NCBI RefSeq assembly: GCF_019428685.1
Contig: NZ_CP080096.1
Span: 1,674,001 to 1,738,000 of the forward strand
DNA: 64,000 bases
DNA from: Paraburkholderia edwinii
Lineage (GTDB): Bacteria; Pseudomonadota; Gammaproteobacteria; Burkholderiales; Burkholderiaceae
Reading direction: 5' to 3'
This document shows positions 8,197-24,535 of the stretch, piece after piece (within the stretch, counting starts at the first letter, position 1; each line of letters starts with the position of its first letter). A model generated the notes under the pieces. It was not told where the DNA came from, did no database searches, and was given only the letters and a program-made list of their open reading frames with translations. The translations under genes and the position numbers were made by a program.

Positions 8197-9039
8197 TCAG
8201 CCTTTGTTGAAGCGCGCGAGAAACTGCTGCGCGCGCGGTGACTTCGGCGCGCCGAAAAACTGTTCGGGCGGCGCGCTCTCGACAACCTGCCCGCCGTCCA
8301 TAAACACCACGCGCGTCGCGACCTGGCGCGCGAATTCCATTTCGTGCGTGACGATGATCATCGTCGCGCCTTCGGCGGCTAGCGATTTCATCACGGCCAG
8401 CACTTCGCCGACGAGTTCCGGGTCGAGTGCGCTGGTCGGTTCGTCGAACAGCAGTACGTCGGGTTTCATCGCCAGCGCCCGCGCGATGCCGACGCGCTGC
8501 TTCTGGCCGCCCGACAGCCGCGACGGAAACTGATCGCGCTTTTCGGCGAGGCCGACGCGCGCGAGCAGCGCTTCGGCTTCCGCGCGCACGCTCGCGCGGT
8601 CGCGTTTCAACACGTGGAGCGGCGCTTCCATCACATTTTCGAGCACGGTCAGATGCGGCCACAACGCGAAATGCTGGAACACCATGCCGATCTTCGCGCG
8701 CATCCCGGCGAGGTCCGCATCGCTCATCTTGATGCGCGTGTTGTCGCGCACGCCCATGCGTTTGCCGGAAATATGCACGCTGCCCGCATCGGGCGTTTCG
8801 AGCCAGTTGATGCAGCGAAGCAGGGTGGACTTGCCGCAGCCGGATGGCCCCAGCAGGCAGATCGTTTCGCCTTGCGCGACTTGCAGCGATACGTCGCGCA
8901 ACACGAGATTGCTGCCGAACGACTTCGAGATGCCGCTTAGCATCACGACGGGGCGTGCGTCATCTTGCGCGGCAAGCGTGGCATCGTGCAGGGTTTGCAT
9001 GGTTTTAGCGGCAGCCCACGAAGCGGTAGGGGAGTTCAC
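8197..9039 (-). CDS. Amino-acid-type ABC transporter ATPase (HisP/GlnQ-like)
   Basis: A 280-residue ATPase with Walker [10 protein letters not shown], signature LSGGQKQR and Walker [13 protein letters not shown], closest in style to the polar amino-acid importers. The start is a GTG at 9039 that overlaps the stop of the upstream permease (GTGA) and has GAGGAA 8 bases before it; an ATG at 9000 lacks a ribosome site. It is the last gene of a four-gene importer operon (binding protein, permease, permease, ATPase). The operon lies next to a MarR regulator and the catabolic island, so the substrate may be a ureide or N-heterocycle rather than an amino acid. Confidence 0.9.
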
Positions 9040-9695
9040 GCGCGGCGTTCCTCGGCAAGTTTGTTTAATGCACCGGTGCCGGCCTCGATTGCGAGGCATA
9101 CGCACCAGTAAAGCAGCACGGCCGTGACGAAGGCCGCGAACGGAATGAAGTAGGTCGACTGGATGCCGGTCATTTCATGTGTAAGTTCGTTGACGGCGAT
9201 GACAGTTAGAAACGCGCTGTCCTTCACGATCTGAATAATCTGGTTGCCGATCATCGGCATCGCACGCAGGAAGATCGGCGGCAGGATGATCCGGCGCAGC
9301 AGCGTGAAACCGGAAAAGCCGTAGGCCTTGCCCGATTCGATCAGCGTGACGGGCAGTTCGTGCCATGCGCCGCGCAGCAGTTCGGCCATATAGGCCGTGT
9401 TGTACAGAATCAGCGCGATCGCGCCGGCCCACCAGTTCGACAAGCTGATGCCTAGCGTCGGCAAACCGAAATAGATCAGATAGACGAACAGCAGGAACGG
9501 GGCGCAGCGCATCGCATCGACGTAAGCCGTCGCCGCGCGCGCGATCGGCTTGCGCTTCGACATCAGCATCGGCGTCAACAGAGCGCCGAGCACGAGCGAC
9601 GCGAGCGCCGACGACACCAGCAGAATCACGGTGTTCAGCAGGCCCGACAGCACGTCGGCGCGCTGCGCCCAGATGGTCGCGAAGTCGTGAATCAT
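9036..9695 (-). CDS. ABC transporter permease, polar amino-acid type (second)
   Basis: A 219-residue inner-membrane protein of the HisM/GlnP family with about five membrane helices. The EAA-loop region is visible as [22 protein letters not shown]. It forms the channel with the other permease. Its ATG overlaps the stop of the upstream permease (ATGA) and its own stop overlaps the ATPase GTG. Tight coupling fits equal amounts of the two permeases. Confidence 0.88.
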
Positions 9696-10336
9696 GCGGC
9701 TTCTCCTTGCCGCATACGTGATTCGATGCTTCGTTGCACGCGCAACAATACATAGACAATCACACCGTACAGCACGAGCGCGAACACGAAGGGCGGCAGC
9801 GGCTCGTACGTGTTCGAACCCACGCGCAGCGCCGCACGCGTGATTTCCACAATGCCGATCACAGCGACGGCCGGCGTCGATTTGATCTGCAGCGTCATCT
9901 CGTTGACGAGGCCCGGCAGGCTCGCGCGCCAGACCTGCGGCAGCACGATGCGGCGCATGCGGGTGAGCCGCGGCATCGCGAACGACAGCGCCGCGTCGTA
10001 CTGATCGCGCGGAAACTCGATCAGCGCGCTGCGCCATACTTCGCAATTGAACGCGGACGTGCTGATCGTCAGCGCGACGATGGCCGCGGGCACCGGGTCG
10101 AGCGACAGACCGAACTGCGGCAGCGCGAAAAAGATCAGCAGCGTGAGCGTGACGGTCGGGCACGAGCGGACGATGCTGACGTACGAATACACCGCGCGGT
10201 CGAGCACCGGCACGCGCGCCCAGCGGATCAGCGCGAGCGCGAGGCCGAGCGGCACGCCGAGCACAATGCTCGCGAGCGACAGCGAGATTGTCGACAGCGC
10301 GCCGCGCGTGATGCTCCAATAGTCGAAGGCGGTCAT
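9692..10336 (-). CDS. ABC transporter permease, polar amino-acid type (first)
   Basis: A 214-residue inner-membrane protein of the same family as its neighbour, with helices at about residues 12-38, 55-75, 82-102 and 186-205. The EAA-like loop is at QYDAALSFAMPRLTRMRRIVLP. It starts 21 bp after the binding-protein gene and overlaps the second permease by four bases, so the operon is clear. Confidence 0.88.
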   Translation of the reverse strand: MTAFDYWSITRGALSTISLSLASIVLGVPLGLALALIRWARVPVLDRAVYSYVSIVRSCPTVTLTLLIFFALPQFGLSLDPVPAAIVALTISTSAFNCEVWRSALIEFPRDQYDAALSFAMPRLTRMRRIVLPQVWRASLPGLVNEMTLQIKSTPAVAVIGIVEITRAALRVGSNTYEPLPPFVFALVLYGVIVYVLLRVQRSIESRMRQGEAA

Positions 10337-10357
10337 CAGGCGGGCTCGTCTACGGAA

Positions 10358-11266
10358 TCAGTTGATCGACTGCGGCATCGACTCGAAGCTCGCGCCGAAC
10401 CACTTCTTCTGCATCGCGTACATTTCGCCGCTCTTGCGCAGATCGAACAACACGGCGTTGATCATCTGCAGTGCGGCCGTATTGCCTTTCTTCACGGCCC
10501 ACGCAATGTAGACGGGCTGGCCGAGCGCCTGGCCGAGTGCGAAATTGTCGGGGCGCGTCTTGATCAGCGAGTTCAGATTGATCTGCGTGTTCGCGACCGC
10601 ATCGAGCCGGCCCACGCCGAGATCCTGATAAGCCTCCGGATACGACTGGTATTCGACGATCTGCTTGATGCCCTGGCCGCCATGCTTCTTTTTGAGGGCT
10701 TCGTCGTAGGCCTTCAGGTCGGCCAGCATCGCGCTGCCGGTCTGCACGCCGACCACCTTGCCCACGAGGTCGTCGCCCGATTTGATGCTCGAGCCTTTCT
10801 TCGTTGCGTAGTACGTCGTCGATTCGACGAGCGGCGTCGTGAAGTCGAAGGTGTTCTTGCGCTCAGGCGTGACGAGCACCGCGGTCACCGCCATGTCGTA
10901 CTTGCCCGTCGTCACGCCGGGCAGAATGCCGGGCCACGGCATGATCTGCTGGCGCACCTCGACCGGCAGCTTCTTCTTCACAAGCGCGAGCATCTCGTTG
11001 TCGTAGCCGGTCGGCTTGCCGTCGTCGACGAATTCGAACGGCTTGAAGTCGTCTTCGGTCGCGACCGTCAGATAGCCGCGTGCCTTGATGTCGTCGGCGC
11101 CGGCCGCGTGGGCGGGCTTCGCGAAGCCGAGCCCGAGACTCGAGGCGGCGAGCGCCGCGAACAGCGTCAGGACGACGGCGCGCCGGGCGGATGCGTGCGG
11201 TCGCGTGGCGATGGCGGTAACGGCGGTGAAGCTGGACGTGAAGCGGGATGTGAAGCGGGACGGCAT
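10358..11266 (-). CDS. ABC transporter substrate-binding protein, family 3
   Basis: A 302-residue periplasmic protein. It has a signal peptide ending at AHA-AG and a family-3 solute-binding fold: GYLTVATEDDFKPFEFVD, GYDNEMLALV, GVTTGKYDMAVTAVLVTPER. The family binds amino acids, opines and related nitrogen compounds. AAAGGGG lies 7 bases upstream of the ATG at 11266. It heads the importer operon and is divergent from a MarR regulator, which is the usual layout for a substrate-induced importer. Confidence 0.88.
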   Translation of the reverse strand: MPSRFTSRFTSSFTAVTAIATRPHASARRAVVLTLFAALAASSLGLGFAKPAHAAGADDIKARGYLTVATEDDFKPFEFVDDGKPTGYDNEMLALVKKKLPVEVRQQIMPWPGILPGVTTGKYDMAVTAVLVTPERKNTFDFTTPLVESTTYYATKKGSSIKSGDDLVGKVVGVQTGSAMLADLKAYDEALKKKHGGQGIKQIVEYQSYPEAYQDLGVGRLDAVANTQINLNSLIKTRPDNFALGQALGQPVYIAWAVKKGNTAALQMINAVLFDLRKSGEMYAMQKKWFGASFESMPQSIN

Positions 11267-11742
11267 GTCATTCCCCTTTGCGGTTTGGATGCGGCGGTCG
11301 ATAAGTTGTCGCTGGGTCGTCGCTGCGTTGTCGGTACGAGACAGCGATATTTGTTTGCACACTTACGAGTTCTGTCGCGTCGATGCAAATGACATGCCAG
11401 TGATGAGTATTTCCGCGTTAGCGACGCGCGGCTGCGGCGTGCGCGTGCAAGGAGCGTCTTGACCGCGAATAGGGAAACGGCACGACGCACCAAAGCATCG
11501 CCGGAATGCACGCAGTACTACGTGTTTTGCACTTGTTTGGACGGGAAAAGCGAATGACGTTCGCTGATGGCGCGTATGCCTTCAAAAGCAAATCGGAGCA
11601 ATCGCAGCACTTGCAAACGCAGCGCGACAGTCCGCAACCGGAAGCATTTCTTCCTGATACGATGTGTACTGACGAAATCGCGAACGAGAGGAGATCGGAT
11701 GATGATCGAGGCGATCCACCACGGCACAAAAGGTTGCGCGCA
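11267..11742. promoter_or_regulatory. Divergent control region of importer and MarR gene, with near-palindrome
   Basis: This 476-bp region separates the importer operon (left) from a MarR gene (right). A 16-bp near-palindrome CACGCAGTACTACGTG at 11509-11524 has 7 of 8 pairs matched and is a candidate MarR operator. AAAAGG at 11728-11733 is the ribosome site of the MarR gene. In-frame starts further upstream of 11743 exist but code for sequence unlike MarR proteins. Confidence 0.45.
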
Positions 11743-12342
11743 ATGACCGTTCGCGCGCCCGGCAAACGGACTGCCGCTAAACCGGCGCAAGCAGCGCGCG
11801 CCAGGGTCGCGGCGCCGGCGCATACCGACGCGGACGCCACCGATCCGTCGGAATGGCGGCACACCACGCTCGACGCGCGGCCCGGTTTTCTGATCCGCCG
11901 TTTGCATCAGATTCACGTCGCGCTGTTTATCGAGGAATGCGCGCCGGAAGGGATCACGCCGGTGCAATACAGCATCCTCACGGCGCTCGATCAGATGGGG
12001 CCATCCGAGCAGATTGCCTTGTCGAACGCGGTCGGGCTCGATCGCGCGAATACCGCCGATGTGATCGCGCGGCTTGCCGAGCGGCGCTTTATCCAGCGGC
12101 GCGGTTCGCGTACCGACAAGCGCAAGAAAGTCGCGGAGCTGACCGATGTGGGCCGCGCGCTGCTTGCGCGGCTCGAGGTTGGCGTCGAGCGCGCGCATGA
12201 ACGCACGCTGGCCGCGCTGCCGCCGAAAGATCGCAAGCAGTTTATGGCGTACCTCGTGCGGCTCGTCGATACGAACAACGAACTGAGCCGCACGCCGATC
12301 AGGCGCGAGCGCAAGCATGGCGGCGCGGCAGACGATGCGTGA
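11743..12342 (+). CDS. MarR-family regulator (NicR-like), first copy
   Basis: A 199-residue winged-helix repressor. After a basic, Ala-rich N-terminal tail of about 45 residues come the dimer helix FLIRRLHQIHVALFIEE, a helix-turn-helix (QIALSNAVGLDRANTADVIARL) and a wing (RRGSRTDKRKKVAELT). The FLIRRxHQIHxxLFxEE signature resembles the nicotinate-pathway repressor NicR group. It is divergent from the importer operon and convergent with the amidase gene. It is related to the regulator at 21838, so the island carries two copies of one regulator type. It probably responds to a pathway compound. Confidence 0.82.
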   Translation: MTVRAPGKRTAAKPAQAARARVAAPAHTDADATDPSEWRHTTLDARPGFLIRRLHQIHVALFIEECAPEGITPVQYSILTALDQMGPSEQIALSNAVGLDRANTADVIARLAERRFIQRRGSRTDKRKKVAELTDVGRALLARLEVGVERAHERTLAALPPKDRKQFMAYLVRLVDTNNELSRTPIRRERKHGGAADDA

Positions 12343-12367
12343 CGGGCCCCGCGCTGAGTCTTAGGTC

Positions 12368-13633
12368 CTAAGCGTCCGGTTGCGCGCTCGCCAGCGCGTC
12401 ATGCACGGCTTGCGCGACGGCGAGCACGCCTTCGTCGTCGCCATGCGCACCGATCACCGAGAGCCCGAGCGGCGCGCCGTCGAACGATGTCCACGGCAGG
12501 CTCACCTGCGGCAACCCGGCGAGCCCCGCGATGCACAGCATCTGCTGCGAGCGCACGCGCACTTCGTCCACTTCCGCGCCCGACGTGCCGATCAGCGGTG
12601 AGATCCATGGCAGCGTCGGCATCACGATATAGGTATCGGGTTCCTCGAAGACGCGCGCGAGTGCGCGGATCGCATCGACGCGCACGCGTTGCGCATCGTG
12701 CACCTGGGCGGGGTGGATCGTGACCGCGGCCTGCAGGCGTTGGCGGATATCGGCGCCGAAGCTGTCGAGATGTCGCATCGCCCATGCGCCATGCTGTTGC
12801 GCGATCTCGGCCGCCTGCAGCACGCGAAAGCTTTGCGCCCATGTTTCGGGTTTGAGGCTCGCCGACGAGAGCAGGCTCATTTCGAAGCGCTCCGACAAGG
12901 TGTCGAATGCGGTGGCGAATGCGGTGCGCACGCGCATATGCAGCAGCGTGACGATGTCGTCGGGCAGGCACAGCATCACGCGTTCGGGCAGGGTTTGCGT
13001 GTCGGTCTGCGCGAGCACGTTGAAGACATCGGCAAGCAATGCGCCGTCGCGTGCGAACCAGCCGACTGTATCGAAGCTGTGCGCGAGCGCGAAGCATCCA
13101 TTGGCGGCGATGCGGCCGTGCGTGGGCCGGATGCCCCAGATACCGCAATAGCTGGCGGGCAGCCGGATCGAGCCGCCGCAGTCGGTGCCGAGGCCTATGT
13201 CCGCGAAACCGGCCGCGACCGCGACGGCCGAGCCCGACGACGACCCGCCCGGTATGCGCGCCGGGCTCGCCGGATTGCGCGGCGTGCCGTAGTGGACGTT
13301 GATGCCGGCGAGGCTGTAGGTGAGTTCGTCGGTGACGGTCTTGCCGACCCATTGCGCGCCTTCTTCGAGCAGCGCGCGCACGGCAAGCGCGGTTGACGTG
13401 GCGACGGGCTGTGCGTCGGCCCAGGTCGGATTGCCGCCGCCGGCGCGCAGGCCTTCGATATCGTACACATCCTTGACCGCGAGCCGCTGACCGGCGAGCG
13501 CGGCCACATGCGATGCTGGCTGCGCGGCGAGATGCACGGCGACCTCGATCGCGACGGGCGCGGGCAATGCGTTGAAGCCGTCGCGGACGAAGGCTCCGTT
13601 AAAGCCCGGTTCGAGCAGCGTGTTCTGGTTCAT
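12368..13633 (-). CDS. Amidase-signature hydrolase
   Basis: A 421-residue amidase. The Ser-cisSer-Lys triad is visible: K54 (LAVKD), S131 (GGSSSGS) and S155 (DCGGSIRLP). The family hydrolyses amide or carbamoyl bonds. Its ATG overlaps the stop of an HpxZ/AtzH-like gene (ATGA). Amidase plus HpxZ/AtzH pairs are known from oxalurate (HpxY-HpxZ) and cyanuric acid (AtzE-AtzH) breakdown, where the amidase acts on a carboxylated urea. The small AtzG/HpxX partner usually found with AtzE is not seen here. Last gene of the catabolic operon. Substrate unknown. Confidence 0.85.
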   Translation of the reverse strand: MNQNTLLEPGFNGAFVRDGFNALPAPVAIEVAVHLAAQPASHVAALAGQRLAVKDVYDIEGLRAGGGNPTWADAQPVATSTALAVRALLEEGAQWVGKTVTDELTYSLAGINVHYGTPRNPASPARIPGGSSSGSAVAVAAGFADIGLGTDCGGSIRLPASYCGIWGIRPTHGRIAANGCFALAHSFDTVGWFARDGALLADVFNVLAQTDTQTLPERVMLCLPDDIVTLLHMRVRTAFATAFDTLSERFEMSLLSSASLKPETWAQSFRVLQAAEIAQQHGAWAMRHLDSFGADIRQRLQAAVTIHPAQVHDAQRVRVDAIRALARVFEEPDTYIVMPTLPWISPLIGTSGAEVDEVRVRSQQMLCIAGLAGLPQVSLPWTSFDGAPLGLSVIGAHGDDEGVLAVAQAVHDALASAQPDA

Positions 13634-14007
13634 TTGTCCATCCAGCTGACGTGCGCGGCGACGACACGCCATTCGTGATCGATCTTCACCCAGGTCTGCG
13701 ACTGTCGCCCGATGCGCGCTTCGCCTGCGCGCGTGAACGTGATGTTCGCGACAGCGTAGTCGTGCCCAAATGTCGTAATCGAACGGTCGACGACGGTGCG
13801 CATCAGATTGGCGCCTGGCCGACGCGCGCGAAATGCGCGAATTTCGTCATATCCGTGCAGATTCTCGGTTGCTCCATAACGCAGTGTATGCGGGCTGTTC
13901 CAGAACAGCGTGTCGAGCATCGCGACATCGTTGGTGGTGAGCGCGGTCTCGTACGCGTCGAACGCGGCGCTGACGGCAGCGTAGGTGGCGGGGTCGTTGA
14001 TCAGCAT
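13630..14007 (-). CDS. HpxZ/AtzH-like protein (DUF3225)
   Basis: A 125-residue protein with an SnoaL/NTF2-like fold: AVSAAFDAYETALTTNDV, LDTLFWNSPHTLRYG, HGYDEIRAFRARRP and a C-terminal QSQTWVKIDHEWRVVAAHVS. This matches the HpxZ/AtzH family, linked to oxalurate and cyanuric-acid catabolism; AtzH acts on a dicarboxyurea-type intermediate. It is translationally coupled to the amidase. It follows the DUF1116 gene after an 89-bp gap. Family assignment is firm on sequence pattern, and the exact reaction here is inferred. Confidence 0.82.
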   Translation of the reverse strand: MLINDPATYAAVSAAFDAYETALTTNDVAMLDTLFWNSPHTLRYGATENLHGYDEIRAFRARRPGANLMRTVVDRSITTFGHDYAVANITFTRAGEARIGRQSQTWVKIDHEWRVVAAHVSWMDK

Positions 14008-14096
14008 AGGGAAAACGAGTAAGTGCGATGCGTGGTGATCCGGACGTTCAGTTTCGCAAGAAAAGACGGCACATGTATACAGCTTGCGACGCGGCG

Positions 14097-15374
14097 TCAG
14101 CGTGCCTGCAGCGCGGCCTTGAACAACGCGACGGGCGCCGCATACACGCCGCGGCCGATAAGGCCCGTGCGTCCGTCGGCGCCGATCATCGCGATTGCGG
14201 CCAGCGGTTCGACGCTTCGCCGCACGACGGCGGCGGCATCGAGCACGCCATGCAATCTGGCATCGAAGGCCGGATGCTGGCCGGTGAGCACGGTCGGTTG
14301 CGAATCGCGCCAGCCGGCGGGCAACCATGCGGCGAATGCGGTTGCGGGTTCGGGTGCCAGTACGAAGGCGTGCGCGCCGAAGCCGGCTGCGTCGATCACG
14401 CCGCTGTCGCCGGTCAGCGGTGCGGCGGCGATGTGCGCGGCGACCGTGTCGAGGCGCGGCCCGGCGGGTGCCGCGGCCGGACATGTAGTCCACACGTCCG
14501 GCTGACCGGCGAGGCGCACGCCGACTTCGCGGCCGTTGCCGGCCAGCGCGATGACGAGCGTTGACGCTGCGTCGGTGTCAGCGCTTTCGTTATCGCCGTG
14601 CGCTGCTGCCGACATCATCAGATGACACGCAGCCATCCACAGCGTCAGAAAAAAGAGCGGCGTATCGGCGAGCATCGCGGCAACGGACGGTTCGTCGATA
14701 AACGGCGATAGTTGCGCCCGCAACGCCGCGGTGGCCGACGTCGTGCGTGCGTGCAGGTCGTCGCCGGCTGCGAGGCCCGCGGCCGCGAGCGGGAACAGAT
14801 CGATCGGACCCGCGCGCTCGAGGGCCGCGGCAAGCTCGCTTGCGAGCACGGTGTCGCGCCATGCGAGCCGCGCAAGCACTTGCGGGTTGCGGCTGCCGAA
14901 GCGGATTTGCGGGCCCGCGCCGCTGCCGGTCAGCGACCAGGCGCGGCGCGCGGTGGGCGACGCGTTTGCATCCACCACTTCGACGAGCGTCGACGATGGC
15001 GACACCACGGCGGCAAGCGGTGTCACCACGCCGAACGATTGCGCGCTGAGCAGTTTCACCTGGCCGGTTGCGATCAGTTGCTCGGCTTGCGCTTCGGTCG
15101 TCGCCCATTTTTCGTAGAGGCAGCACAGCACCGCCGATGAAAGGACCGGTGGCGCTGGATTGCAAGGGTCCGTATAGGGCGGGCCGGCATGCAGCAGCGT
15201 GAAGTCCGGCAGGCCGACGGCATCGCGCGCGCAGGCGACGGCGCGCCAATGCGGGCGCACGGCGTATAGGCGGGCGAGGGCTTGCTGCGTTGCGAGGGCG
15301 GGTGAATTCACGCGCGTGTCTGTATCTGCGTTTGCGTTTGGGTTACGAGGCGCTTCGTTGTTTATCGCGGTCAT
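14097..15374 (-). CDS. DUF1116 protein (AllG/YlbE-like)
   Basis: A 425-residue cytoplasmic protein with the DUF1116 pattern: LLHAGPP at about residue 60, a run AVLCCLYEKWATTEAQAEQLI, TPLAAVVSPSS, PLAAAGLAAGDDLHARTT and LALAGNGREVGVRLAGQPD. The E. coli homologue YlbE/AllG works with FdrA (AllF) and YlbF (AllH) as oxamate carbamoyltransferase in allantoin breakdown. Neither partner is present here. The gene overlaps the CoxG-like gene by ATGA, so it belongs to the molybdenum-hydroxylase operon. Role here: probably carbamoyl-group handling, but this is an inference. Divergent from classical members in the conserved motifs. Confidence 0.72.
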   Translation of the reverse strand: MTAINNEAPRNPNANADTDTRVNSPALATQQALARLYAVRPHWRAVACARDAVGLPDFTLLHAGPPYTDPCNPAPPVLSSAVLCCLYEKWATTEAQAEQLIATGQVKLLSAQSFGVVTPLAAVVSPSSTLVEVVDANASPTARRAWSLTGSGAGPQIRFGSRNPQVLARLAWRDTVLASELAAALERAGPIDLFPLAAAGLAAGDDLHARTTSATAALRAQLSPFIDEPSVAAMLADTPLFFLTLWMAACHLMMSAAAHGDNESADTDAASTLVIALAGNGREVGVRLAGQPDVWTTCPAAAPAGPRLDTVAAHIAAAPLTGDSGVIDAAGFGAHAFVLAPEPATAFAAWLPAGWRDSQPTVLTGQHPAFDARLHGVLDAAAVVRRSVEPLAAIAMIGADGRTGLIGRGVYAAPVALFKAALQAR

Positions 15375-16207
15375 CGTGAACTCACGCCGGGACGCAGCCA
15401 GCCGCGAATGCGCGACCACAGCATTTTCCAGAACAGATTGCCGAGGTCGAGTGGGGCACTGACGGGAGGCTCGGCAGACGGAGTTGCGGCGCGAATCGAA
15501 GGCGCGGAAGCCGCTGTTGTACCCATTGCGCTCATCGTGCTCATAGCACCCGTTGTACTCGCGTTCGGCGTGTCCGCGGCCTGCATTGTGCGAGTCTCAG
15601 TGTCTCCCGATGTCCGCGCGCTGAGCGTGTCTTCGACGTGCGCCTGTTTCAATGTGGTGGGCGAGGGCGTGGTTGCATCCGGCGCTTCGTTCTGCGCTTC
15701 GTTTAGCGCCTTGCCTTGCACTTCGCTTTGCGCTTCGTTTTGTCCGACTGCATGCTGCCGTGCGTCGAGCTTCGCTTTCAGATTCTGCGCAAATGCATCC
15801 GTTAGACGCGTCGCGAGTTCCTTCACGATGCCGCCGCGAGAAAACTGCGCGAGCGTGCCGGCAATCGTGTAATCGACCTTCACGTCCACGCGCGTTTCGG
15901 CCGGCGACATCGCATGCAAGGCAAACGCGGCCACGCCTTTCACGCGCGATGCGCTCTTGCGATCGACACCGCCGCCGCTGACGCTGCCGCGCCGGCCGGT
16001 TTCGTCGAGCGTCATTTCTCCGTCGCCCGCGAAGCTCGCGACGATCGGGCCGAGCTTGACGGTCATCGCGAGCTTGAGCGCGCCGTTTTCGGGCGGTGCG
16101 GTTAGCGACGCGCCAGGCAGGCACGCGACGATGCCGGACGTGTCGTGAAACGAGGTCCACACGTCGTCAAGCGGATAGGCGACGGTAAAGCTTTGTTCGA
16201 TTTCCAT
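15371..16207 (-). CDS. CoxG-like SRPBCC protein with membrane-binding tail
   Basis: A 278-residue protein. Residues 1-150 are a CoxG-type SRPBCC domain (FTVAYPLDDVWTSFHD, ACLPGASL, VDYTIAGTLAQFSRGGIV). A 100-residue low-complexity linker rich in Thr, Ala, Ser and Gln follows. The C-terminus is an amphipathic Trp-rich helix (LFWKMLWSRIRGWLRPG). CoxG of CO dehydrogenase clusters links the enzyme to the membrane and has been tied to quinone transfer. It lies directly downstream of the coxSML-type genes, so electron transfer from the molybdenum hydroxylase to the membrane is a reasonable inference. Confidence 0.78.
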   Translation of the reverse strand: MEIEQSFTVAYPLDDVWTSFHDTSGIVACLPGASLTAPPENGALKLAMTVKLGPIVASFAGDGEMTLDETGRRGSVSGGGVDRKSASRVKGVAAFALHAMSPAETRVDVKVDYTIAGTLAQFSRGGIVKELATRLTDAFAQNLKAKLDARQHAVGQNEAQSEVQGKALNEAQNEAPDATTPSPTTLKQAHVEDTLSARTSGDTETRTMQAADTPNASTTGAMSTMSAMGTTAASAPSIRAATPSAEPPVSAPLDLGNLFWKMLWSRIRGWLRPGVSSR

Positions 16208-16823: not shown

Positions 16824-17665
16824 TGCGGGTTCCTGCCTTTGCCTTGAGTGCCTTGAGTGCGGAGCGTCGCGGCCGCGCGTTCGAGCGCGACGCGATGTAC
16901 CTGGTATTCGTAGCTGCCCGATTCGAGGCCCGCGTCGAGCAGATGCGGTTCGAGTGCGGTGGGCGTTGGAGCGTCGATCAAGGCGCGTGCGTCTGCGATC
17001 AGGTGAGGCGGGCCGTCGAGCGCGCCGATCACCGCGCGGCACACGCCGGCCGCCGGATCGTCGATAAAGAGCGCGATCGCTTCCGCGAATTCACCGGGCT
17101 TGCGGTTGAACTTGTAGTAGCTCCAGCGTGCGTTAGCCATCAGCTTCCGGATGCGCACGCCGGTCAGCAACTCGTCGGGTTCGAGCGCGGTCGTGAACGC
17201 GCCGGACATCCAGTCGGCGCTTTTGACGACGCGCTCGCCTTGCGCGCCCGCGACAAGGAAATCCGCATCGAGTCCGCACATCACATTGATCCAGTCCGCG
17301 GCCGGGTCGGCATGCGCGAGACTGCCGCCGAGCGTGCCGCGATTGCGCACCGCGCGATAGGCGATGCCGCGCGCAACGTGGGGCATCAGGCCTTGCGTGT
17401 AGTCGTCGACTGCGCGGTCTTCGATTTGCGCGTGCGTAATGCCCGCTCCCAGTACGCCGTGCGCGCCTTCGTCGCGGCATGCGCGCAACGCGGCAATGCC
17501 GCGCACATCGACAAGCTGCTCCGGCTGCGCGAAACGCAGGTTCATCATCGGGCCGAGCGACTGACTGCCGGCGACGAATTTCGCCATGCCGGCGCTGGCT
17601 GCAACGAGGCGTACCGCGTCGTCGTAGTCCTGCGGCTTTTCGTAGTCGAATACGGCGGCTTTCAT
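16820..17665 (-). CDS. Molybdenum hydroxylase FAD subunit (CoxM-type)
   Basis: A 281-residue FAD-binding subunit of the xanthine dehydrogenase family. The FAD contacts are visible at residues about 32-40 (AGSQSLGPMMNLR) and about 105-122 (TLGGSLAHADPAADW). It accepts electrons from the iron-sulfur subunit. It is translationally coupled on both sides (ATGA with the large subunit upstream and the small subunit downstream), so the enzyme is an L-M-S type three-subunit hydroxylase. Confidence 0.92.
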   Translation of the reverse strand: MKAAVFDYEKPQDYDDAVRLVAASAGMAKFVAGSQSLGPMMNLRFAQPEQLVDVRGIAALRACRDEGAHGVLGAGITHAQIEDRAVDDYTQGLMPHVARGIAYRAVRNRGTLGGSLAHADPAADWINVMCGLDADFLVAGAQGERVVKSADWMSGAFTTALEPDELLTGVRIRKLMANARWSYYKFNRKPGEFAEAIALFIDDPAAGVCRAVIGALDGPPHLIADARALIDAPTPTALEPHLLDAGLESGSYEYQVHRVALERAAATLRTQGTQGKGRNPQ

Positions 17666-20088
17666 GCGGTCACTCCTTTCGCGGCATTGTGGTGCGCTGC
17701 GCCCGCTCGCGCGATCGCTTCGAGCACGGCGCGCGGCGAGAGCGGCAGGCGCGTGACTTCGGCGCCCAGGGGTCGCAGCGCATCGTTGACCGCATTCGCC
17801 AGCGCGGCGGTCGAGCCGATTGCGCCCGATTCGCCGATGCCTTTCTGGCCGAACTCGGTATAGGGAGCCGGCGTTTCCATATGTTCGATGCGGATCGGCG
17901 GCACCTCGGTCGCGCCGGGCAGCAGATAGTCGGCGAGCGTCGATGCGAGCGGCTGGCCGTCTTCGCTGTACGGCATCGCTTCGTAGAGCGCGGTGCCGAT
18001 GCCTTGCGCGGCGCCGCCGTACACCTGGCCGTCGACGACCATCGGATTGATCAGCACGCCGCCGTCTTCGACGATTACATAGTCGAGAATTTCCGTGAGC
18101 CCGAGCGCGGTATCGACCGCCACGACGACCGCATGGCACGCATAGCTGAAGGTGCCGGTATCGCGCTTCGCCTGATACGAGGTCGCGACTTCGAGTCCGC
18201 GCGGATCGACGTCGGGCGGTAGCAGTTGCGGTTTGAGGTACCACGTGTGCGCGATCTGCTCGAGCGCGCACGTTGCGCCATTGGGACTGACCACGGCGCC
18301 GTGCTGCCAGCTCACATCTTCCACCGGCGTTTTCAGCAGCCATGCGCCGATCTTCAGCAGGCGTTGCCTGAGCTCTTTCGCTGCCTGTCCGACCGCGCCG
18401 CCCGCCATCACGATCGAGCGCGAGCCCCAGGTGCCGGTCGAGTAGGGCGTGACGCCGGTGTCGCCGAGCACGATGCGCACGCGCTCCGTATCGATGCCGA
18501 GCACGTCGTGCGCGATCTGCGCGAGCGTCGTCTCCATGCTCTGGCCGTGCGAGTGGACGCCCGCGCGCACTTCGAGCACGCCGTCGGGCGTCAGGCGCAG
18601 CACGGCGGGCTCGCGGCCCGGCACCATCGGGATGCCCCAGCCGTGATAAACGGAGGTGCCGTGCGCGCCCTGTTCGCAGAACACCGCGATGCCGAAGCCG
18701 ATCCGGCGCCCGTCCGCTTCGCCGCGCCGCTGCCGCGCGCGCACCGCGGGCAGATCGATGGCGGCGACCGCGCGGCGCACCGCTTCCGGATAGTCCCCGC
18801 TATCGAAATGCTTGTTCGTGATGTTGTCGAACGGCATTTCGTGCGGCTCGACGAGATTGCGCAGCCGCACTTCATGCGGCTCCAGGCCGGCGGCCACCGC
18901 GATCGTGTCCATCATCGTTTCAATCGCATAGCAGACGCCCGTGCGCGCGACACCCCGATACGGCAGAATCGGCGGCTTGTTCGTCGCGACCGACCATGTG
19001 CGGCAGCGATAGCGGTCCATCTTGTACGGGCCCGGCAGAATGCTGCCGACTTGCGCCGCTTCGAGGCACGCGGAAAACGGATACGACGAGTAGGCACCCG
19101 AATCGACGGTCGCTTCGCATTCGACGGCGATGAGACGCCCGTCGCGGTCCGCATACGCGGTGATGTCGTAGTCGTGCTCGCGGCAATTTGCGTTCGCGGT
19201 CAGTTGCTCGCGGCGATCTTCGATCCAGCGGATCGGCCGCTCGAGCTGCATCGCGAGCCAGCCGCAGCACACTTCTTCAGGCAGCAGAATGCCTTTGTAA
19301 CCGAAGCCGCCGCCCACGTCGGGCGCGATGACGCGCACCTGGCCTTCGTCGAGATCGAGACACTGTGCGAGACCCGTGCGCGTGATATGCGGCATCTGCG
19401 CCGAGGTGTGGACGATCAGTTGCGCGAGCCGCCTGTCCCAGTGCGCAACGACGCCGCGGCCTTCCATCGGCGCCATGCTCTGGCGCGAGGTGCGCAGCTT
19501 GCGCTGTACGCGGATCGGCGCGGTGCGGCGGATTCCGTCGAGGTCGATCGCCGTCTCGGGGGCGGTTTTTGTGTGTGTGTCGACGAAGGTTTCGAGGAAC
19601 ACGTTGTCGCCCCAATGCTCGTGCACGAGCGCCGAGCCTTCGCGGCGCGCATCGAGCATATCGACGACCGCGGGCAATTCCTCGAAGTCCACGAACACCT
19701 GCGCGGCGATATCTTCGGCTTCGGCGCGCGTGGCGGCGACGCACATCGCGATCATTTCGCCTACCTGACGAACCTTGCCGTGCGCGAGAACGGGCTGCTC
19801 CGACGACTTGAAGCCCGGCAGCCCCGAGTTGGCGACAATCGGTTGCACGCCGTCGAGATCGGCATGCGTATAAACCGCGTGCTCGAAGCCCGCGGGTTTT
19901 TCGATGCCGACGATATGGCCGTGCGCAATCGGACTGCGCACGAACGCGACATCGAGCATGCCGACCATGCGGATATTGCCGACGTATTCGCCGCGCCCGT
20001 GCATGAAGCGCGCGTCTTCCTTGCGCTCGAGCGACGCGCCGATGCCTTGCGGGCGGTCGGACGGTTGCCTGACGGGTCGTTTGATCAT
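17662..20088 (-). CDS. Molybdenum hydroxylase large subunit (CoxL-like, not CO dehydrogenase)
   Basis: An 808-residue molybdopterin-binding catalytic subunit. Family motifs include GGGFGYKG at about residue 258, the active-site loop P376-Y-R-G-V-A-R, and the catalytic glutamate E753 in GQKGIGESG. True form I CO dehydrogenase has AYxCSFR with a copper-binding Cys in this loop; that Cys is absent, so CO oxidation is unlikely. Such form II enzymes hydroxylate N-heterocycles or aldehydes. The neighbours (amidohydrolase, carbamoyl and ureide enzymes) favour an N-heterocycle. The substrate cannot be read from the sequence. Confidence 0.92.
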   Translation of the reverse strand: MIKRPVRQPSDRPQGIGASLERKEDARFMHGRGEYVGNIRMVGMLDVAFVRSPIAHGHIVGIEKPAGFEHAVYTHADLDGVQPIVANSGLPGFKSSEQPVLAHGKVRQVGEMIAMCVAATRAEAEDIAAQVFVDFEELPAVVDMLDARREGSALVHEHWGDNVFLETFVDTHTKTAPETAIDLDGIRRTAPIRVQRKLRTSRQSMAPMEGRGVVAHWDRRLAQLIVHTSAQMPHITRTGLAQCLDLDEGQVRVIAPDVGGGFGYKGILLPEEVCCGWLAMQLERPIRWIEDRREQLTANANCREHDYDITAYADRDGRLIAVECEATVDSGAYSSYPFSACLEAAQVGSILPGPYKMDRYRCRTWSVATNKPPILPYRGVARTGVCYAIETMMDTIAVAAGLEPHEVRLRNLVEPHEMPFDNITNKHFDSGDYPEAVRRAVAAIDLPAVRARQRRGEADGRRIGFGIAVFCEQGAHGTSVYHGWGIPMVPGREPAVLRLTPDGVLEVRAGVHSHGQSMETTLAQIAHDVLGIDTERVRIVLGDTGVTPYSTGTWGSRSIVMAGGAVGQAAKELRQRLLKIGAWLLKTPVEDVSWQHGAVVSPNGATCALEQIAHTWYLKPQLLPPDVDPRGLEVATSYQAKRDTGTFSYACHAVVVAVDTALGLTEILDYVIVEDGGVLINPMVVDGQVYGGAAQGIGTALYEAMPYSEDGQPLASTLADYLLPGATEVPPIRIEHMETPAPYTEFGQKGIGESGAIGSTAALANAVNDALRPLGAEVTRLPLSPRAVLEAIARAGAAHHNAAKGVTA

Positions 20089-20149
20089 CTGTGGTGTTCC
20101 TTGCGGCGTGATGTGTTTAAAGCCGTGTTAACGCGAAAACCGCTGGCGC

Positions 20150-21412
20150 TTAAGCGGCCCGGGCGAGCGGCAGGCTCGGCGAGTTCGCGTCGTAGCGCAC
20201 GCCGTCGCGCACGCAGAGCACCGGTGTCAGCATCCGGTCGGTAACGATCTGCGTGCCTTCGTTGTCTTCGAGCACCCAGCGGCCGCGGCGGTCTTCGAGC
20301 ACGCTGATGTCGGCCACGCCGCCCACTTTCAGGGTACCGAGCTCGCCTTCCATGCCGACCATGCGCGCCGCGTTCGACGTCACCATCCGCACGACGTGGT
20401 CGAGCGGCAGGCCGAGCGCGAGCATGCTCGTCATCGCACTGACGAGACTGAACTGCGTGCGACCGAGAAACGAGTGTTCTTCGTCCGGGTGGCTATCGGG
20501 CGTGCCCGCGGGCGCCGGCACGTGCGTGTTGTAGCCGTGCATATCGGCGCCGAGCGTGTCGGGTACGACGCCCGCGTCGAGCACGATGCGCGCGGTTTTC
20601 AAGCTGAAGTGCGAGCCGTGGCCGACGTCCACTTTCAGCCCACGCGCGATCGCTTCGGGCACGAGCGGATGCAGCTTGCCGTTTTCTTCGACGAAGCCGC
20701 CCGGATGCCGGCTGAACGGGTGCGCGAGGATATCGCCGGGCTTCAGCGTTTCGACGACCTGATTGAAGATCGAATCCGGATTGACGGGCAGGCTGCCGCT
20801 TTCAGGCTTTGGCCATAGCTGCCCGAAATGGATATACACGGGCAGTTGCGCATCGCGGCCGATCTGCGATGCGATCTTCATGACGTTGAGGCCCCAGCGC
20901 GCAAAGCCGCCTATTTCGGCGTGCGCCTTTACGCCTTTTACGAGGTCCGCGTTCGCCTGCGCGGCTTTCACGGTCGCGGACGCATCGAGACATTCGGGGC
21001 GGTAAAGCTCGGGGTAGTAGTGCCCTTCGAGCCCGCCGACGATATACGCGGAAATAAACGCGAGCACGCGCGTTTTCGACGGTTCGGCGATAAAGCTGCG
21101 AAACCCCGGAATCGTGATGCAACTCGGGCCGCCCTGATCGACGAGCGTCGTAACCCCCGAGCGCACGCCGCACATATCGGCGTTGAGCCCGAAGCGTCCG
21201 GTCACATACTGATAGACGTGCGCGTGCGTATCGATCAGGCCCGGCAGCACGAGCCGGTCCTTGCAGTCGATGATTTCGGCAATCGGCGCAGTGGCGGCGA
21301 GGTTGGGGCCGATCGCGGCAATGCGCGGGCCGTCGACAAGAATGTCGAGTGTCGCGTCGAGACCGGCTGCGGGATCGATCACTCGGCCGCCTTTCAGTAG
21401 AACCTGGGTCAT
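20150..21412 (-). CDS. Amidohydrolase/deacetylase-family metal hydrolase (cyclic amide type)
   Basis: A 420-residue amidohydrolase-superfamily enzyme. Metal ligands are suggested by DTHAHVY at about residue 60, VKAHAEIG, ILAHPFSRH, DVGHGSHFS and GADMHGYN. The superfamily includes dihydroorotase, hydantoinase and allantoinase, which open cyclic amide rings. First gene of the leftward operon, 61 bp before the hydroxylase large subunit; the start at 21412 follows a 425-bp control region. In context it would open the ring made by the hydroxylase; this is an inference. Confidence 0.82.
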   Translation of the reverse strand: MTQVLLKGGRVIDPAAGLDATLDILVDGPRIAAIGPNLAATAPIAEIIDCKDRLVLPGLIDTHAHVYQYVTGRFGLNADMCGVRSGVTTLVDQGGPSCITIPGFRSFIAEPSKTRVLAFISAYIVGGLEGHYYPELYRPECLDASATVKAAQANADLVKGVKAHAEIGGFARWGLNVMKIASQIGRDAQLPVYIHFGQLWPKPESGSLPVNPDSIFNQVVETLKPGDILAHPFSRHPGGFVEENGKLHPLVPEAIARGLKVDVGHGSHFSLKTARIVLDAGVVPDTLGADMHGYNTHVPAPAGTPDSHPDEEHSFLGRTQFSLVSAMTSMLALGLPLDHVVRMVTSNAARMVGMEGELGTLKVGGVADISVLEDRRGRWVLEDNEGTQIVTDRMLTPVLCVRDGVRYDANSPSLPLARAA

Positions 21413-21837
21413 AGCGGATATCGGGCTGGTTGGCTGGGTGGGGAAATGCGTGGTGTACCGCAAATACCATGCCGGTTTCCGCGAGGGACGGGAGAAGTAC
21501 CTGAATAGCCGCAACGTCATGCGGTGTTCGAGGGTCCGCGCGGCATTTGCATGGAGATGCTTCGGCATGCTGCCGGCCTGCTCTCGACGCCTGCATGGTG
21601 CGGTCGCGCACCGGATCAAGGCGCTGCGCATGATTATGGTGAATTGTGTGGTGTACCCCGAGTATTTATTCGGGCGCGCGGATTCGCTAGAATGCAGCGC
21701 ATCCGTGTGCCGCGTTTGCGTTGCGCGGCTGTGCGTTCGCGAGTGCGCGGGCGGCGGGTTTGCCAGTGGTTTTTCCGGCGAGTCTGTCAGTGGATTTGCC
21801 AGTGGGTTTTCCAGCGAGTTTGCCAGGACAGAAATCA
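21413..21837. promoter_or_regulatory. Divergent control region of hydroxylase operon and second MarR gene
   Basis: The element TGGTGTACC with similar flanks (TGYGTGGTGTACCSCRARTA) occurs at 21451-21459 and 21649-21657. In the first copy it is part of an inverted repeat TGGT-N11-ACCA (21451-21469). One copy lies 40 bp from the operon start and the other about 190 bp from the MarR start. These are good candidates for MarR operators. A small hairpin GGTGCG/CGCACC is at 21597-21612. Confidence 0.5.
21759..21827 (+). repeat. 24-bp imperfect direct repeats in the MarR leader
   Basis: TTTGCCAGTGG starts a 24-bp unit at 21759-21782 that recurs with two mismatches at 21795-21818 (period 36). A partial third copy, TTTGCCAGGA at 21819-21828, contains the ribosome site of the MarR gene. 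The repeats could affect translation or mark a local duplication. Confidence 0.7.
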
Positions 21838-22365
21838 ATGTCGACTACGATCAACGATGAAACCGATTCGCGCTCGGTGCGCGAAGCACTTGAGGCATGG
21901 CAGGCGCGCTCGCCGCTGTTTAGCCGGCCCGGCTTTCTGATTCGCCGCATGCATCAGATTCACGGCTTTCTGTTTGCCGAGGAAACGGCGCAATTCGATG
22001 TGACGCCCGTGCAATACAGCCTGCTCACGGCGCTCGACGCGCTCGGCGAGATCGATCAGAACTCGCTCGCGATCGAAATCGGGCTCGAGCGTTCGAGCGT
22101 GGCCGAGGTCATGCCGCGTCTCGAAGGGCGCGGGCTGATCGAGCGCCGCCAGGCCGACTACGACCGGCGCGTGAAGCTGGTCAAGCTGACGCGCCAGGGC
22201 AAGCGCCTCGTCGCGAAGATGGCGCCCGCCGTGCAGCGCGCGCACGACCGCACGATCGAGCATTTGCCGCCCGACGAGCGCGATCTGTTTATGCTGCAGC
22301 TGATCCGGCTCGTCGAGGCGAACAACGCGAACAGCGTGGTGCCGTTCCGGTTGCCGCAGGATTGA
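21838..22365 (+). CDS. MarR-family regulator (NicR-like), second copy
   Basis: A 175-residue winged-helix protein with the same FLIRRMHQIHGFLFAEE signature as the regulator at 11743. Helix-turn-helix is at about residues 75-97 (SLAIEIGLERSSVAEVMPRL) with wing RRQADYDRRVKLVKLT. It is divergent from the leftward operon, consistent with autoregulation and repression of the pathway. The start follows AGGA by 8 bases. Two regulators of one type suggest separate control of import and breakdown. Confidence 0.85.
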   Translation: MSTTINDETDSRSVREALEAWQARSPLFSRPGFLIRRMHQIHGFLFAEETAQFDVTPVQYSLLTALDALGEIDQNSLAIEIGLERSSVAEVMPRLEGRGLIERRQADYDRRVKLVKLTRQGKRLVAKMAPAVQRAHDRTIEHLPPDERDLFMLQLIRLVEANNANSVVPFRLPQD

Positions 22366-22433
22366 TTGAGTGGAAAGCACCCGCGCGGCTCAGCGATAAC
22401 GCAGCCACGCGGTTAAGTGCGCACGCGGCTACG

Positions 22434-23165
22434 TTATGCGAGCACCGCGAATTCCACTTCCACCGGATGCAACGCGTTGATCGGCACGATATCTTGCGGA
22501 CATGCGGAAAACACAAACACGCAATCCATCGCGGCCTTGATATCGACGTAGTCGCCGGCCTTCGACACGGCCGGCAGCCATTCGATCGAGTAATCGGACT
22601 TCACCGGAATATTCATCCACAGGTTGAACGGTTGCGGCACTTCGCGTGCGCGCAGGCCGATTGCCTTGAGCGCGAGCCGCATATTGTCCGCGCAATTGTC
22701 GTGATAGCCGGTTACGCCGAGGTTCTTGTAGCGGTGCAGGTCGCAGGCGGCGATCAGCGTGTCGTGCACACCCGGCGATGTGTCGGCGGTCAGTTCCGCG
22801 ATCGGGCGGCGCTGGTTCGTCACAAGCGGATCGCCCACCTGCGGAATCACCTTGTCGATATAGGCGCGCGTGTGCTCGAACGACAGAAACTCGTTCAGAT
22901 GCGCGGCGTTGAAGATCCACGTATCGCAGACCTGTGTGCCGTGCGTGTTCGTCACGCGGATCGTTTGGCCCGCTTTCACGCGCACCGCGCGGCCGCAGCG
23001 CGCGGGAACCGTGTAGGTGCGGCCCGGCTCGGGCGTGCCGTCGGCGGAAATCGGCTCATGCAGCGTGGCGTTTTCGCCGAGCGCCGTGCCGTTGTCGTCA
23101 TGCGTGTGCGTGTGGGATTGCGCTTGCGTTGGGGTCTCGGTAGCGGTCAGGGTCGTGGTGGTCAT
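22434..23165 (-). CDS. DUF1989 (urea-carboxylase-associated) protein
   Basis: A 243-residue protein. A Thr/His-rich leader is followed by the DUF1989 domain: VRVKAGQTIRVTNTHGTQVCDTWIFN, SPGVHDTLIAACDLHRYKNL, DNCADNMRLAL and PFNLWMNIPV. The family is metal-binding and occurs next to urea carboxylase and allophanate hydrolase genes, where its reaction is not settled. Here it sits 89 bp downstream of an M20 carbamoyl hydrolase. Urea carboxylase itself is not in the window. Confidence 0.85.
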   Translation of the reverse strand: MTTTTLTATETPTQAQSHTHTHDDNGTALGENATLHEPISADGTPEPGRTYTVPARCGRAVRVKAGQTIRVTNTHGTQVCDTWIFNAAHLNEFLSFEHTRAYIDKVIPQVGDPLVTNQRRPIAELTADTSPGVHDTLIAACDLHRYKNLGVTGYHDNCADNMRLALKAIGLRAREVPQPFNLWMNIPVKSDYSIEWLPAVSKAGDYVDIKAAMDCVFVFSACPQDIVPINALHPVEVEFAVLA

Positions 23166-23254
23166 CGCGGGTTCCTTGGTGCGGGTGGTGTCCGGTTCGA
23201 AGAGCGTGTGTGTATCAGTGAATCAGTGGGCGGCTTGTGGCGCGGGTGGTGTTA

Positions 23255-24535
23255 TCAAGGCGCTTCGTTGCAAAGTTCGACGAGGCAATGTGCGAGCGCG
23301 CGCGTGCCCAGCACGAGGTGTTCGTCATCGGTTGCCTCGAGCGGGTTGTGACTGATGCCGTCGCGGCTCGGCACGAAGATCATCGCGGTCGCGCATTGCT
23401 TCGCCAGATGCAGCGCGTCGTGAAACGCACCGGAAACGATCGGCTGCGAGCGCACGCCTAACGCATCGCAGGCCGCGCGCACGCGCGAAATTGCGGAATC
23501 GGCGAAATGCACAGGCGGATGCTCGAATAGCGGTTCGAGATGCACGTCGGCGCCGTGCTGCGCGATGCACTCCGCGAGCGCTGCGTCAAAGCGCGCGAGC
23601 ACTGCGGGCTCCGGATGACGGAAGTCGACCGTGAACGTGACCGCCGACGGAATCGTGTTGATCGAGTTCGGCTCGATATGCCAACTGCCGAAGGTGATCC
23701 GCGCCGCGTCGCCGCCGAGTTCGAGCGCGAATGCTTCGATCGCGCCGCGCACGCGCACGGCGAGCGTCATCGCGTCGCGGCGCACCGCCATCGGCGTCGT
23801 GCCCGCATGTGCGGCCGCACCGGTGCAGCGGATCGAATGCCAGCGCACGCCCTGAATACCGGTTACCACGCCAAGTGGCGTTCCAGCCATTTCGAGCAGC
23901 GGCCCCTGTTCGATGTGCAGTTCGATAAATGCGTGGACGGCGCCCGGTGCACGTGTGGCGAGCGTGGGAAACGCGCTGCGATGCGCATCGAGCGTCGCGC
24001 CGAACGTGACGCCGGCCGCGTCGCTGACCGTGCGGAAGCCCTCGAGCCGCGACGGGTCGACGAAGGTGCTCGAGCCCATCGCGCCGGGCTGAAAGCGCGA
24101 GCCTTCCTCGTTGGTCCAGATCGCGACTTCGAGCGGGCGGCGCGTGCGGATATTTGCATCGGCCAGCGCGGCGAGGCATTCGAATCCGGCCAGCACACCG
24201 TACGCGCCGTCGAGCCGGCCGCCGGTCGGTTGCGTGTCGATATGGCTGCCGGTCATCACGGGCGGCAAGTCTTCGTTGCCCGCGCGGCGGAAAAACAGGT
24301 TCGCGCAGGCGTCGGTCGAGACCGTGCAGCCGAGTGCTTGCGCGCGTTCGATCAGGCCGCGCCGCGCGCTGAAGTCGAGCGCCGAAAGCGCGGGGCGGTC
24401 GACGCCGCCGTCGCTGCGCGCACCGATCGTTGCGAGCGCATCGATCGCGTCGGTCAGGCGGGCGGGGTCGACGTGTTCGGCTGCATCGTCGGCTGCACTT
24501 CGGGCGCTTGCCGTGTCGTAGGAGAGTTGGGTCAT
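23255..24535 (-). CDS. M20-family N-carbamoyl-amino-acid/allantoate amidohydrolase
   Basis: A 426-residue dinuclear metal hydrolase. Ligand motifs are GSHIDTQPTGGRLDG at about residue 95, TNEEGSRF, ELHIEQGPLLE and a C-terminal GISHNPLEATD. The family removes carbamoyl groups from N-carbamoyl amino acids, beta-ureidopropionate or allantoate. It probably forms a two-gene unit with the DUF1989 gene and acts after ring opening in the island pathway. Upstream, 298 bp separates it from a divergent cupin gene. Confidence 0.87.
   Translation of the reverse strand: MTQLSYDTASARSAADDAAEHVDPARLTDAIDALATIGARSDGGVDRPALSALDFSARRGLIERAQALGCTVSTDACANLFFRRAGNEDLPPVMTGSHIDTQPTGGRLDGAYGVLAGFECLAALADANIRTRRPLEVAIWTNEEGSRFQPGAMGSSTFVDPSRLEGFRTVSDAAGVTFGATLDAHRSAFPTLATRAPGAVHAFIELHIEQGPLLEMAGTPLGVVTGIQGVRWHSIRCTGAAAHAGTTPMAVRRDAMTLAVRVRGAIEAFALELGGDAARITFGSWHIEPNSINTIPSAVTFTVDFRHPEPAVLARFDAALAECIAQHGADVHLEPLFEHPPVHFADSAISRVRAACDALGVRSQPIVSGAFHDALHLAKQCATAMIFVPSRDGISHNPLEATDDEHLVLGTRALAHCLVELCNEAP

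Follow-up and report, generated by a model that had tools for sequence, protein, structure and literature searches.

A 64,000-nucleotide stretch of the Paraburkholderia edwinii genome (hereafter the window) carries, between positions 8197 and 24535, a gene cluster centered on a molybdenum hydroxylase (CoxLMS), a metal amidohydrolase and a stand-alone AllG protein. The window corresponds to positions 1674001-1738000 of the second of two contigs in a genome of 8.3 Mb. Pfam and NCBIfam profile searches of the window proteins found in this region every family that an earlier, sequence-only reading of the DNA had named, with DUF1116 since renamed AllG (PF06545). Read from right to left, the minus strand encodes an M20 hydrolase, a DUF1989 protein, the amidohydrolase, CoxL, CoxM, CoxS, CoxG, AllG, HpxZ, an amidase, a binding protein, two permeases and an ATPase; the plus strand carries two MarR genes. 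The features are as follows.

8197-9039, minus strand: ABC transporter ATPase (PF00005); proposed GTG start with GAGG upstream
9036-9695 (start approximate), minus strand: ABC permease 2; PF00528 falls on residues 242-419 of the long open reading frame (ORF) 9036-10319
9692-10336, minus strand: ABC permease 1 (PF00528)
10358-11266, minus strand: periplasmic binding protein, family 3 (PF00497); Arg of TPERK kept
11506-12342 (ORF; true start internal), plus strand: MarR-type regulator 1 (PF01047)
12368-13633, minus strand: amidase-signature amidase of the PRK08310 type (PF01425; NF006169, 497.4 bits against a cut-off of 391)
13630-14007, minus strand: HpxZ/AtzH-like protein (NF033625, 181.8 bits against a cut-off of 135)
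14097-15374, minus strand: stand-alone AllG, formerly DUF1116 (PF06545)
15371-16207, minus strand: CoxG-like (SRPBCC) accessory protein (PF06240)
16287-16823, minus strand: CoxS, 2Fe-2S subunit (PF01799); start proposed
16820-17665, minus strand: CoxM, FAD subunit (PF00941)
17662-20088, minus strand: CoxL, molybdenum subunit with the loop YRGVAR (PF02738/PF20256; best Protein Data Bank (PDB) chain 1t3q_B, 472.7 bits)
20150-21412, minus strand: metal amidohydrolase of the PRK09237 type (NF006689, 415.1 bits against a cut-off of 371)
21452-21459, no strand: putative operator-like site GGTGTACC, a near palindrome, amidohydrolase-proximal copy
21650-21657, no strand: putative operator-like site GGTGTACC, second copy
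21721-22365 (ORF; true start internal), plus strand: MarR-type regulator 2 (PF01047), divergent from the amidohydrolase
22434-23165, minus strand: DUF1989 protein, lineage-specific extra (PF09347; 3oru, 234 bits)
23255-24535, minus strand: M20 hydrolase of the hydantoinase/carbamoylase family, lineage-specific extra (TIGR01879, 371.9 bits against a cut-off of 204)

With the proposed starts, start and stop codons overlap at four minus-strand junctions (CoxL/CoxM at 17662-17665, CoxM/CoxS at 16820-16823, CoxG/AllG at 15371-15374 and HpxZ/amidase at 13630-13633), which fits a translationally coupled operon. The sequence-only reading had taken the genes for one catabolic unit, to be checked by co-occurrence in the Burkholderiaceae. 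Among 299 genomes of this family, AllG protein is present in 34 and the amidohydrolase clade (taken at E ≤ 1e-100) in 19, and in all 19 of these, which are mutually related and thus not independent events, AllG and the amidohydrolase share a contig and are no more than 10 kb apart. In two of them (G249 and G159) AllG shows 37-40% identity and was counted by its position adjoining the amidohydrolase, and the remaining 15 of the 34 AllG-bearing genomes (31-38% identity) were left out of the count. CoxL at 63% identity or more occurs in 18 of the 19 amidohydrolase genomes, the exception being a Caballeronia (G203), and in two others (G281 and G004).

Searching named genomes with an AllG alignment extended the comparison to 79 distinct loci from 80 of 98 relatives. 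The nearest named relatives at the locus are Paraburkholderia, and the set includes Caballeronia, Cupriavidus, Herbaspirillum, Azoarcus, Pseudomonas, Stutzerimonas, Amphritea, Marinobacter, Polynucleobacter and Azospirillum, so that the cluster spans beta-, gamma- and alphaproteobacteria from soil and sea. Our tallies use loci L051-L129, leaving out L031-L046 because many contigs are common to both sets, and count neighbors within up to 10 kb of AllG; 29 of the 79 loci are shorter than 20 kb, many on short contigs, and cannot show all genes. On this basis the amidohydrolase is found in 55 loci, CoxL in 50, CoxG in 44, the amidase in 30, HpxZ in 28, a family 3 (SBP3-type) binding protein in 30, a Liv-type one in 18, a PhyH oxygenase in 21 and a gamma-glutamyltransferase-like (HpxW-like) protein in 14. 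The genes present and, in large part, their order are kept across genera, which supports a single catabolic unit; a lack of conserved order in relatives, named beforehand as the observation that would speak against it, was not what we saw. DUF1989 of either type is present in 8 loci and M20 in 3, the M20 loci being close relatives; being so rare, M20 and the DUF1989 type of the window are local extras of this lineage and not part of the core. All 7 DUF1989-bearing loci among the 50 of at least 20 kb are without PhyH and without an HpxW-like gene, a weak hint that these may be alternatives.

We compared CoxL with characterized molybdenum hydroxylases. Its closest solved structure is quinoline 2-oxidoreductase (1t3q), which scores above a CO dehydrogenase (418.7 bits) and shares the YRGV loop and the KGxGES stretch with CoxL. 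Two CO dehydrogenases compared have YACSFR or YRCSFR in place of the YRGVAR loop, and the KGIGESG stretch, which contains the catalytic glutamate, is kept. An assignment as aerobic CO dehydrogenase (CoxL form I) was rejected, as PYRGVAR aligns to YRCSFR of CutL and TIGR02416 gives 458.3 bits against a cut-off of 991, and so was xanthine dehydrogenase XdhA (NF043082, 376.4 bits against 780). The comparison suggests that CoxL is a candidate N-heterocycle hydroxylase resembling quinoline 2-oxidoreductase.

The wider relationships of CoxL point in a similar direction. Matches at 54-56% identity number 27 in the Burkholderiaceae, and all four examined adjoin homologs of NicE, NicD, NicX and NicF (names assigned from record annotations); the three of these loci tested by Pfam also carry an Amidohydro_2 gene. 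In a quick tree, in which the outgroup branches are long and the basal order of the clade is weakly resolved, the CoxL proteins of these nic-type clusters group with Azospirillum proteins (support 88) inside a clade that also holds the window CoxL (support 100), which suggests heteroaromatic acids as the substrates of the clade. The sequence-only reading had held that a CoxL falling among proteins of known unrelated substrate would count against it, and the tree partly touches this point; yet the chemistry of the nic-type relatives is related, and it is known from gene context alone. In L158 and L159 (6-19 kb) CoxLMS and the nic-type genes are accompanied by a Rieske ring-hydroxylating oxygenase and an Amidohydro_2 protein, a set resembling a picolinate pathway. 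A CoxL paralog lies elsewhere in the P. edwinii genome (second contig, 111240-113573; L145), where the match crosses one in-frame TGA.

The hydroxylase is not present at every locus. Eight gammaproteobacterial loci from six genera (L074, L075, L081, L082, L087, L098, L108 and L111) have no CoxL match and possess instead a common two-gene pair, the first gene encoding a VanA-type Rieske oxygenase (6 of 6 loci tested by Pfam) and the second a ferredoxin-NAD type reductase (3 of 3). The Caballeronia locus L036/L067 (G203), likewise without CoxL, bears luciferase-like flavin monooxygenases. With Rieske or flavin enzymes standing in for CoxL, the amidohydrolase and AllG seem to act after an oxidation, for which different enzymes can apparently be used.

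The amidohydrolase belongs to the PRK09237 family and resembles the dihydroorotase and hydantoinase folds. Across 56 loci the metal ligands His-63, His-65, Lys-162, His-195, His-231 and Asp-290 are kept at every covered position; the HHKHHD set is complete in 46, and the other 10 are partial matches showing no departure. A set of HxH, Lys, His, His and Asp defines the subtype I binuclear metal center of this superfamily, and a ring-opening role for the enzyme is plausible from its family.

The AllG protein carries PF06545 and the fold of 3clq, and so has family and fold in common with AllG of the Escherichia coli oxamic transcarbamylase AllFGH. That enzyme requires AllF, AllG and AllH together. 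No match to AllF or AllH was found in the 79 loci at E 1e-4, with positive controls in L047-L049, although for AllH the pairwise comparison has little power when the proteins are distant. In the whole P. edwinii genome the best AllF match reaches 49 bits, and the AllH profile PF11392 has no match (E. coli control positive). We therefore rejected an AllFGH-type transcarbamylase; AllG either acts differently here or has another partner. The AllG proteins of L047-L049, which do adjoin AllF and AllH, are 29-33% identical to the cluster AllG. AllG without AllF also recurs beside oxygenases: at L160 (603-5444) it stands with a short-chain dehydrogenase, a VanA-type Rieske oxygenase and a ferredoxin reductase but no amidohydrolase. 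On a Ruegeria conchae plasmid (L153, 9352-14465) AllG lies between a Rieske oxygenase, accompanied by two hypothetical genes, and an amidase; sarcosine oxidase, PhyH and aldehyde dehydrogenase genes nearby make this look like a separate pathway for an N-methyl heterocycle.

HpxZ keeps the pocket residues Tyr, Arg, Arg, Arg, Arg, Phe, Arg and Gln in 29 of 29 loci. When compared with AtzH by residue number as given in PMC6219798, and not by alignment, its pocket is arginine-rich, has Tyr-22 and Arg-46, and matches seven residues at the same numbers and two glutamines shifted by one; all nine AtzH pocket residues are present in 25 of the 29 loci, and each of the remaining four has eight. These residues are described as surrounding 1,3-dicarboxyurea, and AtzE as removing ammonia from 1-carboxybiuret, with a decarboxylation of the product proposed for AtzH (PMC6219798). 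As the amidase adjoins HpxZ, the two may by analogy act like AtzE and AtzH on a related acylureide. The amidase is not itself an AtzE/HpxY amidase by profile (TIGR02715, 200.6 bits against a cut-off of 425.75). HpxW-like genes are present on Azospirillum plasmids as well as in the loci counted above, and one representative searched against the PDB is closest to 5hft, Klebsiella HpxW, an oxamate amidohydrolase (354 and 281 bits to its two chains); the other HpxW-like loci match this representative at 52-100% identity. PMC12625717 calls hpxW oxamate amidohydrolase and gives hpxY two different names. Taken together, the HpxZ, HpxW-like and AllG families point to oxalurate or a close analogue.

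The cluster thus shares parts with several characterized systems and coincides with none of them. Like the Klebsiella hpx oxalurate genes (HpxY, HpxZ, HpxW) it has an HpxZ above the curated cut-off, an amidase adjoining it and, in relatives, an HpxW-like protein; it differs in the PRK08310 type of its amidase and in possessing the molybdenum hydroxylase, amidohydrolase and AllG. The AtzD-G-E-H-F cyanuric acid pathway parallels it in ring hydrolysis, an amidase and an AtzH-type decarboxylation, whereas no AtzD- or AtzF-like gene is among the window genes identified, HpxZ and the amidase leave no space for AtzG between them, and the window pathway would begin with an oxidation. Purine, pyrimidine and triazine pathways, among those from which the sequence-only reading knew the single families, fit less closely in general than an oxalurate-type module made up of AllG, the amidase and HpxZ, with the HpxW-like enzyme added in relatives. 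The course proposed in that reading, from import through hydroxylation of a ring and a hydrolysis to the loss of nitrogen, agrees with the families found, but M20 and DUF1989 are too rare for a stepwise removal of carbamoyl groups by M20 to be the general scheme. M20 was rejected as allantoate deiminase AllC (TIGR03176, 246.9 bits against 597.75), and DUF1989 as a urea amidolyase-associated UAAP1/2 protein (TIGR03424, 102.5 bits, and TIGR03425, 72.4 bits, against 284.7 and 205.95).

What enters the pathway may be read from the importer, whose type varies between SBP3 and Liv across loci. In amino-acid binding proteins an arginine holds the ligand carboxylate, and an aspartate is usual at the position where Asn-Thr stands here. 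The cluster binding protein has R-N-T in 30 of 31 loci and R-N-N in the other; with the arginine kept and the aspartate replaced, it is a fair guess that the imported acid has no free alpha-amino group. As for regulation, a near palindrome like GGTATACC occurs upstream of the amidohydrolase in 23 of 24 loci, compared with a mean of 3.0 and a maximum of 7 after shuffling, a count that overstates its weight as the motif was chosen by eye on the same 24 related sequences and the shuffles keep single-base content only. The window has no exact match to GGTATACC, and between 5 and 30 kb the one-mismatch matches are confined to 21452 and 21650, both in the amidohydrolase promoter region.

From these data we infer the following scheme, in which the families suggest each reaction, the order of reactions and the oxalurate-type intermediate. 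A heterocyclic acid, as indicated by the binding protein, would be imported and hydroxylated at a ring carbon by CoxLMS or, in some relatives, by the Rieske oxygenase and its reductase; the metal amidohydrolase would then cleave a cyclic or acyl amide. AllG without AllF and AllH, together with the amidase and HpxZ, would break an acylureide or imide, the amidase releasing ammonia and HpxZ decarboxylating the resulting carbamate, as is thought for AtzE and AtzH. The product would be an oxamate-type amide, which in many relatives the HpxW-like enzyme could hydrolyze. Taken whole, as a MarR-controlled operon for importing and degrading a heterocyclic acid through an oxalurate-type intermediate, we regard this scheme as evenly balanced between right and wrong. 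A more specific form, a widespread aerobic pathway in which an N-heterocyclic acid is converted to the oxalurate-type intermediate by interchangeable first enzymes and AllG functions as an enzyme without partners, giving its family a second function outside the AllFGH transcarbamylase, we put forward tentatively and would expect to fail somewhat sooner than hold.

Several observations weigh against the scheme. Many loci that keep the amidohydrolase and AllG are without HpxZ and the amidase, so the oxalurate step is not universal; among them, 8 of the 50 long loci show only CoxL, the amidohydrolase and a Liv-type importer. In Methylobacterium radiotolerans and on a Geminicoccaceae plasmid an alpha/beta hydrolase lies between the amidohydrolase and CoxLMS, and AllG, HpxZ and amidase have no match in these stretches, suggesting that the cleavage of a simple amide or ester may suffice. 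A close HpxW was not found in the P. edwinii genome (best match 37%). Were oxalate the end product, an association with oxalyl-CoA decarboxylase would be expected; this enzyme occurs in 11 of 19 cluster genomes and 132 of 280 others, showing no association.

In a rival reading the substrate would be a pyridine carboxylate or an N-methylated relative, similar to picolinate or homarine, with AllG, HpxZ and the amidase cleaving N-acyl amides from an opened pyridine rather than ureides. The placement of the nic-associated CoxL proteins in the wider clade, the binding protein with its carboxylate arginine and no aspartate, and the Rieske and sarcosine oxidase genes accompanying the Ruegeria AllG all agree with this, as do Azospirillum brasilense (L137, 530-11811) and A. 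argentinense (L155, 1752-13577), in which nic-type genes lie downstream of the amidohydrolase. In these two loci the nic-type genes run divergent from the Cox/HpxZ/AllG operon. However, A. ramasamyi has the whole cluster with no adjoining nic genes, and although nic/pic pyridine carboxylate clusters share a related CoxLMS, their NicX-type ring dioxygenase and other nic enzymes are not in the window cluster. NicX (2,5-dihydroxypyridine dioxygenase) has no match in the P. edwinii genome with a query that finds L157, L158, L159 and L165, and homologs of NicC, NicD, NicE and NicX are absent from the 79 loci at E 1e-10; L113 has one weak isochorismatase-family match. An HpxW-like enzyme has no known step in a nic-type pathway, and on balance we consider a pyridine substrate unlikely.

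Oxidative pyrimidine breakdown would account for the genes in another way: CoxLMS or the Rieske enzyme would form a barbiturate, the amidohydrolase would be a new type of barbiturase yielding malonurate, and AllG, amidase and HpxZ would lead to malonamate. The oxidative uracil pathway, with barbiturase and ureidomalonase, likewise consists of a hydroxylation followed by hydrolysis of a cyclic amide, malonurate is the one-carbon homologue of oxalurate, and the amidohydrolase is akin to dihydroorotase and hydantoinase. The HpxW-like protein, by the function of 5hft, nevertheless indicates oxamate and not malonamate. Malonyl-CoA decarboxylase, which occurs in 6 of 19 cluster genomes and 100 of 280 others, is not associated with the cluster, and a search of the P. 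edwinii genome did not find it. The barbiturase of that pathway is an AtzD homolog (PMC6219798), and the window amidohydrolase lies outside the AtzD family. We judge this route improbable, more so than a pyridine substrate. Least credible, and in our view very improbable, is that several independent small operons stand side by side without a common substrate; the restricted distribution of M20 and DUF1989 and the alternation of SBP3 and Liv importers would fit such an arrangement, but the core co-occurs in 19 of 19 genomes, in a recurring order, with overlapping start and stop codons and one recurring operator-like motif.

The sequence-only reading knew of no described pathway to match, and we too met no account of this gene set, nor a paper joining DUF1116 with DUF1989, in the literature searched, outside which most subscription journals fall. 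The gene set is not described in the titles and abstract openings listed for oxamate carbamoyltransferase, AllFGH, DUF1116, HpxW, AtzH and barbiturase/ureidomalonase, and it is absent among the matches listed for the homarine/Ruegeria operon and for molybdenum hydroxylase/hydantoin/amidohydrolase clusters. The cluster is a conserved pathway of known families, in which the stand-alone AllG, the joining of an oxalurate-type module to a ring hydroxylase and the interchangeable oxidizing enzyme stand out. If the oxalurate-type scheme is true, it would show a new way in which bacteria from soil, plants and the sea break down a nitrogen heterocycle, give stand-alone AllG proteins their first role, and assign a role to a conserved molybdenum hydroxylase clade annotated on plasmid records merely as xanthine dehydrogenase family. 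The strict core with an interchangeable oxygenase would also make the search for the substrate tractable by a growth and transcript screen.

Other genes accompany the cluster at its edges and in individual relatives. In the window it is flanked by a cupin gene (24834-25475) and a TIGR03571-type luciferase-like monooxygenase (25611-26600), one or other of which is also present at the locus edge in P. humisilvae, P. rhizosphaerae and P. solisilvae. On the importer side, an SBP_bac_11-type periplasmic binding protein at 5666-6775 has a cupin gene immediately upstream, and a binding protein of this type adjoins the importer in L031/L052 and L053. In Cupriavidus gilardii and C. cauae (L083, 11.3-13 kb; also L080 and L085) the genes after AllG encode GTP cyclohydrolase I-like and DsbA-like proteins, and in L116 a UbiD decarboxylase sits between AllG and the amidohydrolase.

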